Origin: a virus
IMG/VR virus record: IMGVR_UViG_3300028883_000992
Span: 1 to 64,000 of that record
Direction: 5' to 3' (one strand)
DNA: 64,000 bases
Position numbers and translations under genes: made by a program. The notes beneath the pieces are model-generated. The model ran no database searches. It was not told the origin of the DNA and saw only the letters and a program-made list of their open reading frames with translations. Below are positions 4,242-35,900 of the stretch, piece by piece; the first letter of the stretch is position 1; each line of letters opens with the position of its first letter.

Positions 4242-4679
4242 ATGTGTAATTTTTTGTCAGGCTATGCCACAAAAAAAGAAATCAAGATTGATCCTTTTGT
4301 TGATTCACATGAGAATCAAATTGAAATCAATGGGGATCAACATCTTGATAAAGATGGAAATCTTGTAAGATTTGAAATTGAACCTAATTTCAAAGATTTC
4401 TTCAATGCCCAAAGTTGGGAATTCAAAAGAGATCAGGATATAATTCCTGATTGGGCAGATTTAAAAGAAATTGAAATAAGTGCTAAAACTAAACTTCAAG
4501 AAATATTAGATTCATGTCCTCAAAATGAGGAAATATCTATAATTTCTAACAGAGTTTTAGCAATAGGCAAATGTACTGTCAGTAAAATGACAGACTTTGC
4601 CATTGTGAGATTTATGTTTAATTCACAAGTGAATAAAATGTTTAATAAAGCTAAAATCATAAATGATTATAGGAGTTAA
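4242..4679 (+). CDS. Phage protein with N-terminal MCNFLSG motif, 145 aa
   Basis: It begins MCNFLSGYATKKEI and continues with DSHENQIEINGD, resembling uncharacterised phage proteins that share an MCNFLS start with cysteine as residue 2. After removal of the initiator Met that cysteine would be N-terminal, so an Ntn-hydrolase-like or modification role has to be considered, but this is inference. AAGGAG precedes the start. Acidic, soluble, function unknown. Confidence 0.82.
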   Translation: MCNFLSGYATKKEIKIDPFVDSHENQIEINGDQHLDKDGNLVRFEIEPNFKDFFNAQSWEFKRDQDIIPDWADLKEIEISAKTKLQEILDSCPQNEEISIISNRVLAIGKCTVSKMTDFAIVRFMFNSQVNKMFNKAKIINDYRS

Positions 4680-4680
4680 G

Positions 4681-5022
4681 ATGAAAATAAAATTGGGAAC
4701 TTATGATAATGTGTTAGGCACACTTACAGATATATGTAAGGAGAATGATATTAAATATCAAATTGATGTTGATAACATAGGAGATATTGCTTTTAAACTT
4801 ATAACATTACTTAATATGCCTTTTATTAAGTTTAAGGTTGGTGAAAAATTGCATATTGAACTTGATGTTGACCGCATTAAAATTTTTAAAGTTAATGACA
4901 AACTGCTTGAAGTTTCAAATTGGAGTGAAGTTCCTACAAAATATGAAGGTTTTGTGCTATTTGACAATACTTTATATGAAATCAAACAACAGGAGATAGA
5001 TGAAATATGGCACTTGATTTAG
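4681..5022 (+). CDS. Hypothetical protein, 113 aa
   Basis: The chosen ATG lies just downstream of AGGAG; an in-frame start at 4663 lacks a ribosome binding site and would overlap the previous gene. Composition is alternating strand/helix, with no known motif. The 3' end overlaps the next gene by 16 nt. Confidence 0.75.
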   Translation: MKIKLGTYDNVLGTLTDICKENDIKYQIDVDNIGDIAFKLITLLNMPFIKFKVGEKLHIELDVDRIKIFKVNDKLLEVSNWSEVPTKYEGFVLFDNTLYEIKQQEIDEIWHLI

Positions 5023-5561
5023 AGTATTATGATAAACAGAAACATAGGCTTGACAAGGGGATTTGTTGGTATAATAAATGCCCGTATCAACCTAATTTTG
5101 TTGGCTTTATGATTTATGGATATAGCAACCTTAAAATCCATTATAGGCTTGCTCAAATAGGTATAAGACACAATCAAGCATACTGGTTTGAGGCTCATAC
5201 AGCCTATTGTGGCGTTGTGCTCTCGTTCCCCTACTTATTTAGTGCCGAGATTCAACAGCAAGCCAAAGAGACTCTAAAAGAGTGGTATCCTTACATTTAC
5301 CAACATCTTTTCAATTGTCGTTTAAAGCCAAGTGATTCACATATTTTAAAAAGGGATAGGTTCTATGAAGAACACAAAGATTCATATATAGGTATATGTT
5401 CATGGAGAATATTTCATAACAATATGCCTACAAACAGATTAAAAGTATTAGCTTTCAGACCATTAGATCAAGACTATCAATATTTTATTACAGATGATTC
5501 ATATTATGATTCATCTAAAATAATGGAAGGTAAACCTGTAAATGATTTTCAAACATGGTGA
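5007..5561 (+). CDS. Hypothetical protein rich in aromatic residues, 184 aa
   Basis: The start is preceded by AGGAG. The protein is unusually rich in Tyr, Trp, His and Phe (for example CWYNKCPYQPNF and AYWFEAHTAYCG) and has five cysteines, so a metal-binding or redox-sensitive fold is possible. No signal peptide. I do not recognise the family. Confidence 0.8.
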   Translation: MALDLEYYDKQKHRLDKGICWYNKCPYQPNFVGFMIYGYSNLKIHYRLAQIGIRHNQAYWFEAHTAYCGVVLSFPYLFSAEIQQQAKETLKEWYPYIYQHLFNCRLKPSDSHILKRDRFYEEHKDSYIGICSWRIFHNNMPTNRLKVLAFRPLDQDYQYFITDDSYYDSSKIMEGKPVNDFQTW

Positions 5562-5568
5562 AAACAAA

Positions 5569-5847
5569 ATGAAAAATTGCAGTAAAAAACTATTTCAAAA
5601 ATTGAAAACTTGTTATGAAGAGCAGGATTATAACAGTGTTTTACAGATAGAATATGAATTACTGCAAATAAGTTTAAAACAAAGTGCAAGATTAGATATT
5701 AAACTTTGTACTGACCCTCTTGTTTTATTTTCTGGAACACATAATCATCCGTCAGAGATAAGAAAATTAGTTGGTATTCCTGAAGACATATTAAACAAAT
5801 CAAACGCCGCTATGAAATTCATAGCAGAAACAAAGAGGTTAAAATGA
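5569..5847 (+). CDS. Hypothetical protein, 92 aa
   Basis: Start chosen at the ATG behind GGTGAAAAC; an in-frame ATG at 5542 would add nine residues and is also possible. The middle contains LVLFSGTHNHPSEIRKLVG, and the rest is helical. It is coupled to the HicB-like gene by ATGA. No function assigned. Confidence 0.72.
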   Translation: MKNCSKKLFQKLKTCYEEQDYNSVLQIEYELLQISLKQSARLDIKLCTDPLVLFSGTHNHPSEIRKLVGIPEDILNKSNAAMKFIAETKRLK

Positions 5848-18109: not shown

Positions 18110-19348
18110 TTGAACTACCAAATAGGTTGCATTATATGTGCACTTAGAACAGACATAGAACAGTTATTACAATATAATGAACAATACTTTGTTGGTAAAC
18201 CTCAAGAAATCTTCAAAGTTGTCATTAATTTATACAGCCAGTTTGGTGAAGTATCTGAAGAGCTATTAAAAGAAAATCTTGATGCCAGACAGTTAAAATA
18301 CTATGAAATCGCTGATGTAGATATTACTAAAAAAGACCAGTATTTTAAACAACTTGAAGACCAGTACACAAATAGAAAGTTATTAGGTCTGTCAAATTAC
18401 CTCAAACAAAATACTGTTACTGTATCAGAGAAAATAGGCATAGTAGGTAAGACATTAGATGTAGTAACCAAAACAACTTCAGAAAAAACTGTTCAATCAT
18501 TAGGTGAAATATATCAAGATGTTTTAAAAGACATAAATTCCGGTAGCAGAAAATGCCTTCACTTTGGTATAGAAAGTCTTGATAATGAAATAACGGGCAT
18601 TTTTGAAAATGAATATGTTATCATAGGTGGATGGCCTTCTGTTGGTAAAACAGCATTAGCAATACAATTGCACATAAATATGTCTGTACAAAAGGAGATT
18701 CCTACTGCCATATTCAGCTTGGAAATGCCCGCTAAGGATTTAGTTTATCGTATCATTGCTAACATGTGTGATATTGATCTTCACAAGTTTGGAACCTATA
18801 ATTTTACTAAAGAAGAAATGCGTAGAATTGAGGTACAAAGCAAAAAATTAGGCAAATCTCCATTATATGTTGTTGAACTTCCTTCACCCAATATTTATAG
18901 TATATTAAAAGAATGTTCAAAACTTATAAGAACAGAAGGTATTCAACTATTCTCTTTAGATTTTATACAGCGTCTAAGTGAGACTGACAATAAACATGCT
19001 GAAATTAGCACTATCTCCAAGCGTATCAAGGACTTCACTAAGGAAACAGGTGTGCCTCTATTGGTGCTTTCACAGCTAAAAAGAGTGGCAGAAAAAGACA
19101 AAAACGGACGTATAAGACGGCCTGAAATTTTTGACTTAAAAGAGTCCGGTTCTTTAGAACAGGACGCAGATAAAGTCGTATTAGTTTATAGAGAATCATA
19201 CCAAAACAAGGATTTAATACAATCAGAAAACGAGAATGTACCTAACAGGCTTATTAATGATATGGAACTTAATGTTGTAAAAAACAAGAACGGACGTATA
19301 GGTATGGTTCATTGTACATATACGAAAAAGAATCAGAGAATATTTTGA
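18110..19348 (+). CDS. Replicative DNA helicase, DnaB-like, 412 aa
   Basis: RecA-fold helicase of the DnaB family: a short N-terminal domain (1-95), a linker helix, then GIESLDNEITGI, Walker A IIGGWPSVGKTA (171-182), AIFSLEMPAKDL (motif H1a), Walker B LFSLDFIQRL, VLSQLKR (H3) and SGSLEQDADKVVLVYR (H4). TTG start immediately after the upstream stop. It would unwind the fork ahead of DnaE; the primase encoded at 34.2 kb is the likely partner. Confidence 0.93.
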   Translation: MNYQIGCIICALRTDIEQLLQYNEQYFVGKPQEIFKVVINLYSQFGEVSEELLKENLDARQLKYYEIADVDITKKDQYFKQLEDQYTNRKLLGLSNYLKQNTVTVSEKIGIVGKTLDVVTKTTSEKTVQSLGEIYQDVLKDINSGSRKCLHFGIESLDNEITGIFENEYVIIGGWPSVGKTALAIQLHINMSVQKEIPTAIFSLEMPAKDLVYRIIANMCDIDLHKFGTYNFTKEEMRRIEVQSKKLGKSPLYVVELPSPNIYSILKECSKLIRTEGIQLFSLDFIQRLSETDNKHAEISTISKRIKDFTKETGVPLLVLSQLKRVAEKDKNGRIRRPEIFDLKESGSLEQDADKVVLVYRESYQNKDLIQSENENVPNRLINDMELNVVKNKNGRIGMVHCTYTKKNQRIF

Positions 19349-27092: not shown

Positions 27093-27408
27093 TTTAGAAA
27101 AACTTAAGGTTATAGATGCTCAATATAACCATGATAATTTTTTTGAATGGGATAAACATAGACAAGAAATATATACATCAATAAAGCGCGGATATATAAT
27201 AGATATAGATTTACTTGAACCGCGACATGTTCAACTTTTTTTAGATATGTGTGAAGATTTCTTTACAAACTTAGGTGAAACCCATATTATTTTTCAGTCT
27301 ATGAAAGGACGTTTGAGAAAAGTAAGAGAATGGGCAGACAGCAGAAGACTTAGATATAAGAAACTCGGCAACAAACATAAAATTCATGTTGGGAGAGTGA
27401 GTGGATAA
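27073..27408 (+). CDS. Hypothetical basic protein, 111 aa
   Basis: Helical and basic, especially near the C-terminus (SMKGRLRKVREWADSRRLRYKKLG), suggesting nucleic-acid binding. It overlaps the amidase GTG start by 8 nt. No family recognised. Confidence 0.75.
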   Translation: MAKKKIDLEKLKVIDAQYNHDNFFEWDKHRQEIYTSIKRGYIIDIDLLEPRHVQLFLDMCEDFFTNLGETHIIFQSMKGRLRKVREWADSRRLRYKKLGNKHKIHVGRVSG

Positions 27409-27985
27409 ATTTCAAGTTATATTTTACAAGGGTGACTACAAAGATCGCCAAGAACAAGCAAACAGAGATGACTGTGACCTATATGTTGAACAGCATTTAA
27501 ATTCTGTAACCGACCCTACAATTGACTATGCCTGTGTAATTACACGCAAGGTTCCAAATACAACAGAAGAAGCATTAGCTAAAACATATTGTGAAATGAT
27601 TCATAATACGTTTGGTAATCAATGTCAAGGCGTTATTAAAGGTGGATTTAACGGCAGGGGGTCAAGAAATATAAGCACTTGCACAATGCCATCACTTCTA
27701 TTGGAACCTCTTTTTATTTCCAATAGACAACATGTAGACTGGCTAATGAATGGATTAGGCATACCTTTATTGGCAGTATGTTTAGCAGATACAATTAAAA
27801 CTTATTACAAATCAGGAACAATAGGATTTAGTGTGGGTCACAAATATAAAACTTCTAATCCAGATGATCGTGGAGCTAAAGTACCGGAATCATATTTGAT
27901 ACCATATTTAAATACATCAATTTATGAATCTGATATTTGTGAATCTATACTTCTCAAGGCAAAAAACATATTGGAGATGAAATGA
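27401..27985 (+). CDS. Amidase_3-like cell-wall hydrolase, apparently circularly permuted, 194 aa
   Basis: The protein contains the elements of zinc N-acetylmuramoyl-L-alanine amidases (Amidase_3), but in rotated order. Residues 14-35 (DRQEQANRDDCDLYVEQHLN) match the usual R..ANxxxADLFVSIHxN segment with zinc His32. Residues 96-108 (MPSLLLEPLFISN) match the catalytic PxxLVExGFxSN segment with Glu102. Normally the protein ends soon after; here it continues with GFSVGHKYKTSNPDDRGA (142-159) and a YESDICESILLKA helix (175-187), which resemble the family's N-terminal DPGHGGxDPGA strand (His147) and Glu helix (Glu176). All four active-site residues can thus be found. Probably the endolysin. GTG start. 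Confidence 0.68.
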   Translation: MDKFQVIFYKGDYKDRQEQANRDDCDLYVEQHLNSVTDPTIDYACVITRKVPNTTEEALAKTYCEMIHNTFGNQCQGVIKGGFNGRGSRNISTCTMPSLLLEPLFISNRQHVDWLMNGLGIPLLAVCLADTIKTYYKSGTIGFSVGHKYKTSNPDDRGAKVPESYLIPYLNTSIYESDICESILLKAKNILEMK

Positions 27986-30446: not shown

Positions 30447-30640
30447 AAGTAATATATTTACACATATGGTTAAACAATATTTTACGTTTTTTCAAACTAC
30501 ACAAGCATAGCTATAGAACCGTATATAGTTCTCCATTATTTTTAATTAATAAATGTACTTGTGGTCATTTAAAATTTGTTTTAAGAAAAGACTTGATAGA
30601 ATCGGTAGAAGATTGCAAAAAATATATTAAAAACCTATGA
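30443..30640 (+). CDS. Hypothetical basic protein, 65 aa
   Basis: ATGA-coupled to both the macro domain gene and dnaE. Basic, with a CTCGHLKF segment. GGAGG precedes the start. No family recognised. Confidence 0.72.
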   Translation: MKVIYLHIWLNNILRFFKLHKHSYRTVYSSPLFLINKCTCGHLKFVLRKDLIESVEDCKKYIKNL

Positions 30641-33426
30641 TACACCTACATTTACATACACATTATAGTGCTCTTGACGGATTTCTGACCGTACCTCAGT
30701 TAGTATCTGCGGTCAAGAAATTAGGTATGTCTGCTGTTGCTGTTACAGAGCATGGAAATATAAACTCATGGATAGAGTTCCAAATTGAATGTACAAAACA
30801 AGGTATTAAGCCTATATTTGGTATAGAAGCATATGTAACAACAGATGAATCTAATAAAACCAATTACCACATCACGCTACTTGCAAAAAATAACGAGGGG
30901 CTTAGAGAAATAATTAAGCTCCATAATACTGCCCATCTTAACGAGCAAAAATATAGGGCACATAGAATTTACTATGATCAGATATTAGAATGTTCTAATA
31001 TTATCGTATTGTCAGGATGCTTAAACTCGTACATAAACAGAATGGCATTAGCTGATCAAAAAGAAAAATGTAAGGAATGGATATATAAGTTCCAAAATCA
31101 TTTTGGATCAGATTTCTATATAGAAATACAAGACCTCAATATAGAAGAACTTGATATAGCAAGAGAACGAATACTTAAATGGTTTCCTAATGTCCAAACT
31201 GTAATTACCAATGATGTACATTATGAAAATAGAAGTGATGCCGACTCACAGCATACATTATATTGTGCACATATTCACAAAAAAGAGGATGAATTTAAAA
31301 AACATCCACCTGAAATGTATATTAAAACCGACATAGAAGGATACGACACAAGTTCTACATATGAAATAGCAGACAAATGCAATGCATCAATAGAACCTTT
31401 TACTAACACTATTCCTAACTTCACAGAAGTAACTTGGATTCCTGAACGTATTATTGACAAACAACAATGCAGAAAAGAATACACTGTTATTAAAAAAGCG
31501 GGATATTGGCCTTATCTATGTATAGTTGCTGATTACGTAAAATGGGCTAAAGAACATAATATAATGGTTGGGTATTCAAGAGGTTCAGCAGGTGGATCAT
31601 TATTAGCTTACGCAATGGGGATACATGATATTGATCCTATTAAATATGATTTATATTTCTCTCGTTTTTTTAATGAAGGACGCATAGACTCAATGCCTGA
31701 CATTGATACTGATTTTCCTAAAAATGGAATAGCTCAAGTTAAAGATTATATTAAAAGCAAGTATCACCTAGTTGGATTAGGTACATACGGAACTATGGAC
31801 GTTAAAAATGCTATTAAAATGGTATGTAGAACAACTGGCGTACCACCTAATGAAGCAAATGAACTCACTAAAAGATATGGGGACGGATTAGATGTTGATT
31901 ATAACCTACTTCCTGAAAATCACGCAAAGGCATTAAAACTGTCTGATCAATACAAAGGTTTACTAAATGCATATGGTCAACATGCTTCTGGATATATTCT
32001 AAGTCATATAAATCTTGAAGAAGAAGTGCCTGTAAGATACTCACGTACAGGTGATTTACAGACATGTTGGAATATGGATCATATGGAATGGTTGGGATTT
32101 GTCAAGTTTGACCTTTTAAAACTTACAACATTAGACATTATACATGAAACATTAGAAAACATAGGTATCCAAAGAGATGATATTCCTATTGACGATAAAC
32201 CTACATATGATCTAATTTCAACAGGAAAAACATTTGGGCTATTCCAAATAAGCGGATCAGATGGTATAGCAAACCTATGCAAGCAAATTCAACCTAAAAA
32301 CATTGAAGATATTGGTATTATTATATCACTATATAGACCCGGACCAATGGAAAATAATTTTCATACACAATATATAGACAGGAAGAACGGTGCACCCGTA
32401 GAATACCTGCATCCATTCTTAGAGCCACTCCTACAAGATACATATGGAGTCATGATATACCAAGAACAAGTTATTAAAGTTTGTATGGCAGTAGGATTTT
32501 CAGATACAGAAGCAGATACTATTAGAAAAATAATGGGAAAAAAGAAGCCTGAGTTGCTTACAGATGTAGAGCCTCAATTCATAGAAAAGTGCAGTAAAAT
32601 AACGGGTGAAAAAATCGCCAAAATACTATGGGAACAATTAACAAAATATAGTCATTATAACTTTAATAAAGCTCACGCTATAGGATATGCATATTTAGCT
32701 TATATTACAGCATATTTAAAATGTCATTACCCACTACAGTTTTATACTGCCATATTAAATCAGGAAACAAAATTAGTAGCCATACAGGAATGTATTAACG
32801 ACATACAGGGTTTTAAGATATTGCCACCGCGTTACGGAAAAAGTGAATATAATTTTAAGGTAGAAGGTTCTAATATAAGATACGGAATTAAAGCACTATA
32901 TGGTATTGGCGAAAAAGAGATGGAAAGAATTAATGATCCCAATTTCTTTAAACAAGGAAGTGTGGTTGCTGAACAACTTATTAAAGCAGGATTTTATGAC
33001 ACTATAAGTACCAACAGAAAGTCCTTAATTTCTCAACAAAAACGCAGAAATCCAGAACTATTACTAATAGAACCATCAGATTTTACAAAGCAAGAAAAAG
33101 AGCAGTTTGAGTTTGATTTACTTCGTGTATACCTTGACAAGAATCCACTAAGTAGACTTGTAAAAGAATCAGTTTATACTGGAAATAACTACCAAATAGG
33201 CAACAGAATTCCTGTTATTATCCAAAAAGTAGAGAATAAAACAAGTAAGAAGGGAAATAAATTTGCAAAGATACATACCATCAATATAAATAACAAAACT
33301 GATACCTTTTTTCTATGGGGAAAATCATATGAGAAATTTATTTTAAAAGAAGGTTGTTATTATATTATAACACTTGACAAAACAGAAGATACTTTTTATA
33401 TTACTAATGTACAGGAGCTAAAATAA
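30637..33426 (+). CDS. dnaE: DNA polymerase III alpha subunit (DnaE-like), 929 aa
   Basis: C-family polymerase. The N-terminal PHP domain opens with HLHLHTHYSALDG and AVTEHGN. The palm carries GYSRGSAGGSLLAY and the catalytic PDIDTDFP (Asp355, Asp357), with a third acidic residue in FVKFDLLKL. The fingers include SLYRPGPMENNF and YQEQVIKVCMAVGFS; RKIMGKKKPE and FNKAHAIGYAYLAY follow, with an OB-fold segment near the C-terminus. Shorter than cellular DnaE (about 1100-1160 aa). PHP His/Asp residues look intact, so it may proofread itself. This is the phage's replicase. Confidence 0.97.
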   Translation: MIHLHLHTHYSALDGFLTVPQLVSAVKKLGMSAVAVTEHGNINSWIEFQIECTKQGIKPIFGIEAYVTTDESNKTNYHITLLAKNNEGLREIIKLHNTAHLNEQKYRAHRIYYDQILECSNIIVLSGCLNSYINRMALADQKEKCKEWIYKFQNHFGSDFYIEIQDLNIEELDIARERILKWFPNVQTVITNDVHYENRSDADSQHTLYCAHIHKKEDEFKKHPPEMYIKTDIEGYDTSSTYEIADKCNASIEPFTNTIPNFTEVTWIPERIIDKQQCRKEYTVIKKAGYWPYLCIVADYVKWAKEHNIMVGYSRGSAGGSLLAYAMGIHDIDPIKYDLYFSRFFNEGRIDSMPDIDTDFPKNGIAQVKDYIKSKYHLVGLGTYGTMDVKNAIKMVCRTTGVPPNEANELTKRYGDGLDVDYNLLPENHAKALKLSDQYKGLLNAYGQHASGYILSHINLEEEVPVRYSRTGDLQTCWNMDHMEWLGFVKFDLLKLTTLDIIHETLENIGIQRDDIPIDDKPTYDLISTGKTFGLFQISGSDGIANLCKQIQPKNIEDIGIIISLYRPGPMENNFHTQYIDRKNGAPVEYLHPFLEPLLQDTYGVMIYQEQVIKVCMAVGFSDTEADTIRKIMGKKKPELLTDVEPQFIEKCSKITGEKIAKILWEQLTKYSHYNFNKAHAIGYAYLAYITAYLKCHYPLQFYTAILNQETKLVAIQECINDIQGFKILPPRYGKSEYNFKVEGSNIRYGIKALYGIGEKEMERINDPNFFKQGSVVAEQLIKAGFYDTISTNRKSLISQQKRRNPELLLIEPSDFTKQEKEQFEFDLLRVYLDKNPLSRLVKESVYTGNNYQIGNRIPVIIQKVENKTSKKGNKFAKIHTININNKTDTFFLWGKSYEKFILKEGCYYIITLDKTEDTFYITNVQELK

Positions 33427-33467: not shown

Positions 33468-33710
33468 ATGAATATAGAAAAAATAAATAATAAACTAAAG
33501 CCATGTCCGTTTTGCAGAGTTACCATAGAATCATTAAATGAACATATGGAACGCAATGGAACAAAATGGGAGCATTATAGACCACAGATATTTTTTGATA
33601 ACTTCGTTTCCAAATCATGGGTTATCTATTGTAATAACTGTGGCATAACTTTGATAACAGGATGTGAAGATATTAATGAAGCTATAATAACTTGGAATAA
33701 CAGAGGTTAA
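33468..33710 (+). CDS. Lar-like restriction alleviation/zinc-ribbon protein, 80 aa
   Basis: LKPCPFCR (10-17), then WVIYCNNCG and the terminal helix EAIITWNNRG follow the Lar family pattern (CPFCG...CxxCG...AxxxWNRR). Lar modulates type I restriction-modification in favour of phage DNA. The second Gly of the first knuckle is Arg here. AGGTGG precedes the ATG. Confidence 0.8.
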   Translation: MNIEKINNKLKPCPFCRVTIESLNEHMERNGTKWEHYRPQIFFDNFVSKSWVIYCNNCGITLITGCEDINEAIITWNNRG

Positions 33711-33711
33711 T

Positions 33712-34203
33712 ATGAATATAACATCAGACTATGACGAAGAATCAGATGTGCTATATATTTCTATAGGGAAACCTCAGCCTTCTATATGCACAGAACCACA
33801 AGAAGGTATATTACTGGGATGGTCTGAAAAAGATATGCACCTATGTGGAATCACTATACTAAACTACAGCAGACAAAATATACCAGTAGATAATAATCCT
33901 ATGAAAACATTAAATTTTCAAATAGGCTCTAATCCTATTGATGGATACGAACTTATAGAAGTAATAAAGGTCCAATTAGTATACAATAAAAGTTCTGTTA
34001 TAGCAACATTAGTTGAATGTGGAATATCAGAATCAGATGAAAATGATTACATGGCAATATGTAATTTATTTGATATGTGTAAATACCTATTAGATGAACC
34101 ATCAGATACTAAATACGGTAACACATTAGGAAAACAAGTTAAATACTTACACGATAAGTTTAAAAAAATCCCAATAATTACAGCAGGAAGAATAAATGTT
34201 TAG
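33712..34203 (+). CDS. DUF2283 domain protein, 163 aa
   Basis: Residues 5-55 (YDEESDVLYISIGK, EGILLGW, LCGITILNYS) match the DUF2283 beta domain of unknown function. The remaining hundred residues are a separate alpha/beta part. It begins 1 nt after the Lar-like stop. Role unknown. Confidence 0.78.
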   Translation: MNITSDYDEESDVLYISIGKPQPSICTEPQEGILLGWSEKDMHLCGITILNYSRQNIPVDNNPMKTLNFQIGSNPIDGYELIEVIKVQLVYNKSSVIATLVECGISESDENDYMAICNLFDMCKYLLDEPSDTKYGNTLGKQVKYLHDKFKKIPIITAGRINV

Positions 34204-34230: not shown

Positions 34231-35193
34231 ATGAAACAAGACATACTCAACTATCTTACACATATATATCATCAACATCTACTTAACAGTAAGGATGCTG
34301 CCAATTACTTAAAAGAACGCGGTATTAAAAAATCTGCGAAGAGATTCAAGTTGGGATACTGTACTGGGAATATAGGGTATCAGACGTTACTTAGAACATA
34401 TACAGAGAACCAGTTAAAAGATACAGGTTTTTTCAAATGGAATAAAGACCCTTTTAATTATCGTATTATATTCCCATTAATTAAAGGTGTAGACACATTA
34501 TATTTTACATCACGAACAATAGGCGACAAAGAACCTAAACATAAACATCTTACAGGACCAATACCTGTGCCATTTAACTACAATACCATTCATAATGATA
34601 ATATTATAATAGTTGAAAGTCCTATAGACGCTATAACATTAGAACAAGCAGGTTATTATGCAATGGCTTCATTGGGATTGTCAATTAAATCTCATACTGC
34701 CATTGAATTACAGGGAAAAAATATCTTTATTTTGTATGATTACGATTTACATAATGCAGGTCAAGAACGTGCAATAGATTTAGCTGACCTACTTTACAGG
34801 AATAAAGGTAAAGCACATATTTGTCAATGGCCTAAGAACAATAGAAAAATGGATGTCAACTGGCTTTACCTAAAAGACAAAAAGAAATTTCAAAATAATA
34901 TAAATATATTACTTAATAACTCTATAAGATTTGAAGAACATCCTGCCTTTGAAGAAAAAAGAAAGGAAAAAATATGGACACCTGCACAAAGGGGAAATTT
35001 CCGTGAATTAGTAAAAAAATATGGATGGAAGATATTCGGAAATAACCTTGTTAGAATACCCTGTCCATTCCATAATGATTCAACACCATCATTAACCATC
35101 TATCTTAATACTAATAGCTCATATTGTTTCGGTAAATGTAAAAAAAGTTATAGTGCGATAGAAATAGATCACGCATTACAAGGGAAAATATGA
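34231..35193 (+). CDS. DnaG-type primase with C-terminal zinc-binding domain, 320 aa
   Basis: Primase catalytic core at the N-terminus: ANYLKERGIKKSAKRFKLGY (24-43), RIIFPLIKGVDTLYFTSR (78-95), then a TOPRIM domain with IIIVESPIDAITL (Glu129, Asp133) and FILYDYD (Asp170, Asp172). The CHC2-type zinc finger that DnaG carries at its N-terminus is instead at the C-terminus: RIPCPFHNDSTPSLTI (Cys278, His281), then YCFGKC (Cys299, Cys303), preceded by the usual helix FRELVKKYG. No helicase-binding domain is seen. It would prime DnaE synthesis together with the DnaB-like helicase. Confidence 0.83.
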   Translation: MKQDILNYLTHIYHQHLLNSKDAANYLKERGIKKSAKRFKLGYCTGNIGYQTLLRTYTENQLKDTGFFKWNKDPFNYRIIFPLIKGVDTLYFTSRTIGDKEPKHKHLTGPIPVPFNYNTIHNDNIIIVESPIDAITLEQAGYYAMASLGLSIKSHTAIELQGKNIFILYDYDLHNAGQERAIDLADLLYRNKGKAHICQWPKNNRKMDVNWLYLKDKKKFQNNINILLNNSIRFEEHPAFEEKRKEKIWTPAQRGNFRELVKKYGWKIFGNNLVRIPCPFHNDSTPSLTIYLNTNSSYCFGKCKKSYSAIEIDHALQGKI

Positions 35194-35900
35194 TTTACTA
35201 CAAGTTTCTAAAGGAAGACAGACGAGCATCATTTGTGAATGGCTTCCAATGGCCTAAACCACCAAACAAACCCGATCCTGTTATTGGTAATTTGGTGGTG
35301 TGTAAAAACGGATACCACTTATGCCGTATAGAGGACTTGCCCCATTGGTTGAATCAGGAACTTTGGATCGTTGGCTGTGATGAAACGGAGTTAATAGAAT
35401 CAAATAATAAGGTGGTTGTTCGCCACGCATGGCTTGAAAAGCAGGTAGACACATGGAACGAAAAAACTGCACGACTCTTTGCTGCCGACTGTGCCGAACA
35501 CGTGCTGCATTTATTTGAAAGTAGATATCCAGACGATAAACGGCCACGTAATGTAATTGGGGCTACAAGAGATTATGCACATGGTCGCATATCACACGAT
35601 GATATGATTGCCGTATGGACTGCCTCAAAAAATGCCGCAGGACGTGCCGAAGATGCCGAAGATACCGCAAAGATCGCCGCATTTGCAGCAGCCGCAGCCG
35701 CATTGGATACCTCATGTGCTGCTGCAAAAGCAGCCGCATGGACTGCCTCAAGGGCTGCCGCATGGGATGCATCAGGTGCAGCATGGGATGCATCAGGTGT
35801 AGCATGGGGGGCTGAATCTGACGCATGGGATGCTGCATGGGATGCCGAACGGCAGTGGCAGACACAGCAATTACTCAAGTACATAAACAATGAAATATAA
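35190..35900 (+). CDS. Phage protein with DUF7666-like head and Ala/Trp-rich repeat tail, 236 aa
   Basis: The N-terminal segment (YKFLKEDRRASFVNGFQWPKP, VVCKNGYHLCRIEDLPHWL) resembles the head of the repeat protein at 11721. A middle part (KTARLFAADCAEHVLHLFE, PDDKRPRNVIGATRDYAHG) recalls predicted immunity-like proteins. Residues 140-220 are Ala-rich repeats with AAWDASG units, probably a long helix. Markedly GC-rich compared with neighbours, which keeps several spurious frames open. ATGA-coupled to the primase. Function unknown. Confidence 0.8.
   Translation: MIYYKFLKEDRRASFVNGFQWPKPPNKPDPVIGNLVVCKNGYHLCRIEDLPHWLNQELWIVGCDETELIESNNKVVVRHAWLEKQVDTWNEKTARLFAADCAEHVLHLFESRYPDDKRPRNVIGATRDYAHGRISHDDMIAVWTASKNAAGRAEDAEDTAKIAAFAAAAAALDTSCAAAKAAAWTASRAAAWDASGAAWDASGVAWGAESDAWDAAWDAERQWQTQQLLKYINNEI

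Follow-up and report, generated by a model that had tools for sequence, protein, structure and literature searches.

The DNA analysed here, referred to as the window, comprises the first 64,000 bases of a viral record of 91,135 bp, and it contains a replication region in which a primase gene lies together with genes encoding the DNA polymerase III alpha subunit, RecA, a DnaB-type helicase and clamp-loader- or RuvB-like ATPases. The primase gene, the features of its product and the neighbouring genes are the following:

18110-19348, + strand: DnaB-type replicative helicase, the probable partner of the primase
30637-33426, + strand: DNA polymerase III alpha subunit, in the same replication module
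33468-33710, + strand: Lar-like C4 zinc protein, a short way upstream of the primase
33712-34203: DUF2283 protein, the gene preceding the primase
34231-35193, + strand: gene for the swapped-order DnaG-type primase (320 aa, then stop), frame open throughout
34267-34539, + strand: DNAG_N (PF08275), the N-terminal lobe of the RNA-polymerase core, residues 13-103 (1.6e-9; 38.4 bits against a cut-off of 26; core model)
34606-34860, + strand: TOPRIM domain (Toprim_2), residues 126-210 (5.9e-8), with R95 upstream of the domain
34879-34917, + strand: helix after TOPRIM in the model, residues 217-229, of putative role
34918-34995, + strand: low-confidence linker from core to finger in the model, residues 230-255 (pLDDT <50 at 248-255)
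34987-35184, + strand: C-terminal CHC2 zinc-binding domain, residues 253-318 (ligands C278, H281, C299 and C303)
35190-35900, + strand: alanine-rich Imm5-like protein, with its start overlapping the stop of the primase gene (ATGA)

The first-pass annotation of this DNA had placed the zinc finger of the primase at its C-terminus, behind a DnaG-like core, and the profile searches agree. Pfam-A recognised three domains in the ORF, all above their gathering cut-offs and in the order DNAG_N, TOPRIM, CHC2, the last of these (Zn_ribbon_DnaG, PF01807) covering residues 277-311 of 320 (2.9e-6; 27.5 bits against a cut-off of 24.9). The CPFH ... CFGKC finger announced for residues 278-303 indeed reads C278-P-F-H281 ... 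C299-F-G-K-C303. PHROGs and the NCBIfam DnaG model matched core and finger as separate stretches, and in phmmer searches against the PDB the core matched the RNA-polymerase domains of 2au3 and 5guj, and the C-terminus gave a weak alignment to the 1d0q zinc domain. These matches show the arrangement core-TOPRIM-finger to be real. A six-frame search for CHC2 across the whole 91,135-bp record returned a single match, the C-terminal finger of the primase itself (E 3.5e-9), so that there is no additional N-terminal finger upstream. The protein terminates with the finger, and no Pfam match to a C-terminal helicase-binding domain of the DnaG kind was found in it at E up to 10.

The primase has the domain content of the DnaG-type TOPRIM superfamily, namely a TOPRIM domain with the catalytic Glu/Asp, DNAG_N before TOPRIM, and CHC2. 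Since the finger is not N-terminal, no helicase-binding domain is detected and the score against the bacterial DnaG equivalog model TIGR01391 (84.1 bits) is far below the cut-off of 283.6, we file the protein as a swapped-order variant of this superfamily and not as DnaG proper. Searches of viral contigs and genome contigs yielded no close relative, either of the entire protein or of the core alone; the core alignment was too varied for use as a scan query. The annotation had also pointed to a second protein with rotated domains, an amidase, and this proposal gained support: the Amidase_3 protein encoded at 27401-27985 (+ strand) matches profile positions 55-157 of 174 as encoded (38.6 bits), versus positions 11-157 in one stretch when its last 58 residues are moved to the front (47.4 bits), which supports a predicted circular permutation.

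In sequence the window primase is distant from known primases, with identities of about 20-30%. Among the aligned primase cores, P82, R95, E129, G149, D170 and D208 of the window protein are invariant and Y26, R30, D172 and G177 nearly so. Separate models were made of the finger and of the full protein, because the aligner misplaced fragment alignments in which core and finger were mixed. The full-length model reached a pLDDT of 76, a middling confidence; its core matches the DnaG RNA-polymerase domains 5guj and 1dd9, with 1d0q matched again over 62 columns, the relative placement of finger and core in this model not being reliable. The finger alone, modelled by AlphaFold2 with 16 relatives, reached a pLDDT of 83, and its only high-probability Foldseek matches were 1d0q (DnaG zinc domain) and 2au3 (primase). 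VIA-align gave Z scores of 6.4 for 2au3, 5.5 for 1d0q and 5.2 and 5.0 for human Twinkle zinc domains, values that are modest in general terms, with all others at 2.5 or less. The C-terminus thus has a CHC2 fold by profile and models as a DnaG zinc ribbon, the helix said to precede the finger is present in the model at residues 256-264, and neither the zinc ligands nor the CPFH...TPS core shows any loss.

Elsewhere the finger comes first. It was N-terminal in more than 40 proteins examined, from viral contigs, genomes, and phage and plasmid primases. All fingers recovered from viral contigs and genomes with the window finger as query were N-terminal. Among the viral contigs related to the window through Pol III alpha, CHC2 was present in 4 of 27, always N-terminal; the swapped order is thus not shared by these relatives, in which the finger is N-terminal or absent, and was found instead in separate viral contigs, described below. 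In annotated phages and plasmids only finger-first arrangements were seen, both among the tblastn matches examined for the window protein and two of the swapped proteins and among the best few matches to a finger-only query. In cluster-A mycobacteriophages the finger is a separate upstream ORF, and in Mycobacterium phage LoneWolf (L036 2736-3582) finger (gp61) and core (gp60) are encoded by overlapping ORFs in different frames. A separable finger is thus already known, from this split and from the stand-alone DnaG-type zinc ribbons reported in group 2 jumbo phages (PMC7824862). The last cysteine pair of the window finger is CxxxC instead of CxxC, as had been noted, but this spacing is not peculiar to the protein, since it also occurs in the N-terminal finger of the Leptospira plasmid pLiSL21 primase (L059 4602-7448), which ends in CMGAC, and, as CFGGC, in the majority of the remaining C-terminal fingers. 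No description of a C-terminal finger on a DnaG-type primase was found in open-licence papers, which is weak evidence of novelty.

The further swapped primases came from a scan with a DNA pattern for the TOPRIM motif DND.AG followed, after 100-120 codons, by C..H.[DE].TP, a pattern that neither requires one frame nor names the second zinc knuckle. Eight viral contigs (L082-L089) were retrieved, whereas two motif scans with shorter spacing gave zero matches; the matching control pattern does find the window gene. In all eight contigs both motifs share one frame, within proteins roughly 300 residues long (one truncated at the contig end) that represent six distinct sequences. Pfam placed TOPRIM before CHC2 in each of the four swapped proteins tested, and every one of the eight records holds a single CHC2. 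The window shows the same pattern, with a TOPRIM core followed by a C-terminal CHC2 in one frame and one CHC2 in the record. Of the six distinct proteins, five have CFGGC, with CxxxC as in the window, and L087 has CFGC. Between L082 and L083 dN/dS is 0.11 for the finger and 0.15 for the core, indicating purifying selection on the finger; these figures describe the two relatives, as no close homologue of the window protein itself was found for such a measure. The C-terminal-finger architecture is therefore recurrent and maintained, given the in-frame order in eight contigs and the selection acting on the finger.

The L082-L089 type differs from the window in that neither DNAG_N nor DnaB was detected: no Pfam match to DNAG_N was obtained in L082-L087, and the seven swapped-order records tested, which may be fragments, gave no DnaB match, whereas the window phage has both. 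In L084, L085 and L087 a P-loop protein of 411-427 aa is encoded by a gene that shares four bases with the end of the primase gene, at its stop, and a relative of this protein lies near the swapped primase in L089:

L084, 8021-9265: P-loop ATPase
L085, 11546-12829: P-loop ATPase
L087, 3059-4294: P-loop ATPase
L089, 4683-5990, - strand: P-loop ATPase relative

For the P-loop ATPase of L084, L085 and L087, nothing scored above cut-off in Pfam or NCBIfam and no match was obtained in the PDB or in annotated phages; our guess is that it could be a helicase or a helicase loader. L084, a viral contig with a terminase-like ORF, also carries a cpn60-like chaperonin (4312-5808, - strand; PF00118, 3.2e-19).

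Fingers and cores were compared separately. Over the second knuckle and the following helix, six C-terminal fingers score 51-75 against the window finger, versus 37 or less for all N-terminal fingers. By second-knuckle likeness these six rank first of 33, a ranking for which the near-copies among them make a formal probability meaningless and in which the N-terminal sample, largely picked by likeness to the window finger, biases against C-terminal fingers coming first. In the finger tree a starred set with 96/96 support unites seven C-terminal fingers and one N-terminal finger (L090), the support for the exact clade being 66/23. In the core tree the six swapped proteins group together (100/99), and the window core falls outside this clade, weakly with the Leptospira and Burkholderiales plasmid primases (92/74; 72/90 after removal of long branches); forcing the window core into one clade with the swapped proteins was not rejected (p-AU 0.096 and 0.175). 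By sequence comparison, then, the C-terminal fingers appear to resemble each other more than they resemble any N-terminal finger, and the cores seem to show no clear grouping. A single old swap followed by divergence may account for these sequences. We give somewhat less than an even chance to the alternative that a separate finger lineage became fused behind two or more different DnaG-type cores, namely the window's and that of the L082-L089 type. If true, this would define a primase class with the template-reading module hanging from the TOPRIM end, with an altered reach from the primer 5' end to the active site and perhaps an obligatory action between subunits.

Established work on the primases of T7, T4 and bacteria assigns recognition of the template start site and retention of the primer 5' triphosphate to the zinc domain, and polymerisation to the TOPRIM core. 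It is quite likely that the window protein is a minimal DnaG-type primase in which the zinc domain has been relocated from the N- to the C-terminus and the finger still reads the template. This explanation is grounded in the domain order, the conserved residues, the finger fold by model, the recurrence in viral contigs and the selection on the finger in relatives; the primase activity, the role of the finger and the contact with the helicase are what we infer for the window protein. The DNAG_N/TOPRIM core would make short RNA primers by the usual two-metal TOPRIM chemistry, and the C-terminal CHC2 ribbon, tied behind TOPRIM by a flexible linker of about 26 residues, would read the template start site and hold the primer 5' end like the N-terminal ribbon elsewhere, possibly serving either its own core or a neighbouring one (cis or trans). 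Such a tethered finger could do the usual work, given that an 18-residue linker joins the zinc and polymerase domains in T4 (PMC10359460) and that zinc domains can act between subunits, according to Corn et al. (2005) as cited in PMC6163395. Since no DnaB-binding domain was detected, contact with the phage's own DnaB would probably be made through the helix after TOPRIM, the finger or both; in T4 the polymerase domain swings on the helix after TOPRIM, which is helicase-bound (PMC10359460).

That the finger has been repurposed as a DNA tether or as a dock for helicase or SSB, replacing the helicase-binding domain of DnaG and taking no part in template selection, we consider improbable. The finger does occupy the position of that domain, which the window primase seems to lack, and in T4 the motif HIM1, which adjoins the zinc ribbon, binds the helicase (PMC10359460); still, the finger has kept its zinc ligands and CPFH...TPS core in full, in a record without any other CHC2 for the usual job. 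An even smaller probability attaches to a function of this TOPRIM protein other than priming, or to its being an inactive remnant of a primase. The low identity to known primases and the score far under the TIGR01391 cut-off would suit such a protein, but the combination of DNAG_N, TOPRIM and CHC2 is one found in primases, the active-site residues are kept and the gene sits within a replication module. As for an artefact of assembly or sequencing by which two genes were joined or rearranged, the sequence is a virus contig for which no replicate was found; this idea is nevertheless largely refuted, because the architecture recurs and is under selection. Eight further contigs have the same order in open frames, the window finger groups with their C-terminal fingers, and the window reading frame is itself open throughout.

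Compared with bacterial DnaG (TIGR01391; 2au3, 5guj, 1d0q), the window primase shares DNAG_N, a TOPRIM domain with the catalytic acidic residues and a CHC2 domain with its preceding helix, but it carries the finger at the C-terminus with CxxxC as second pair, has 320 aa versus about 600 and shows no detectable helicase-binding domain. T4 gp61 is likewise small, with zinc-binding and RNA-polymerase domains, without the four-helix helicase-binding domain, and with a helix after TOPRIM and a short flexible linker between its two parts, whereas its zinc domain comes first; residues 217-229 of the window protein lie at the position of the gp61 helicase-interacting helix HIM2, whose role they may share (PMC10359460). 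The Fromanvirus-like split primases (LoneWolf gp61 and gp60; Pharaoh gp55 and gp54) have a minimal core that is similar in size, LoneWolf gp60 and its Pharaoh counterpart being the best phage matches by core coverage, but their finger is a separate polypeptide encoded upstream. In the stand-alone zinc ribbons of group 2 jumbo phages the finger is also a separable module, although not fused, and a C-terminal fusion is not described in that work (PMC7824862). The Leptospira and Burkholderiales plasmid primases (L059-L063), which have the nearest core in the tree, though weakly, and in L059 a CxxxC finger, differ in having their finger at the N-terminus and a large additional C-terminal region. 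For T4, the tether that connects the zinc and polymerase domains has been proposed to help set primer length (PMC10359460). With the zinc domain first in the DnaG-type primases checked, a tether at the opposite end is a natural exception, which will be missed or misread by searches or structure-based annotation built on the usual order, and such enzymes offer a direct natural test of how finger position and linker geometry affect start site, primer length and action in cis or trans.
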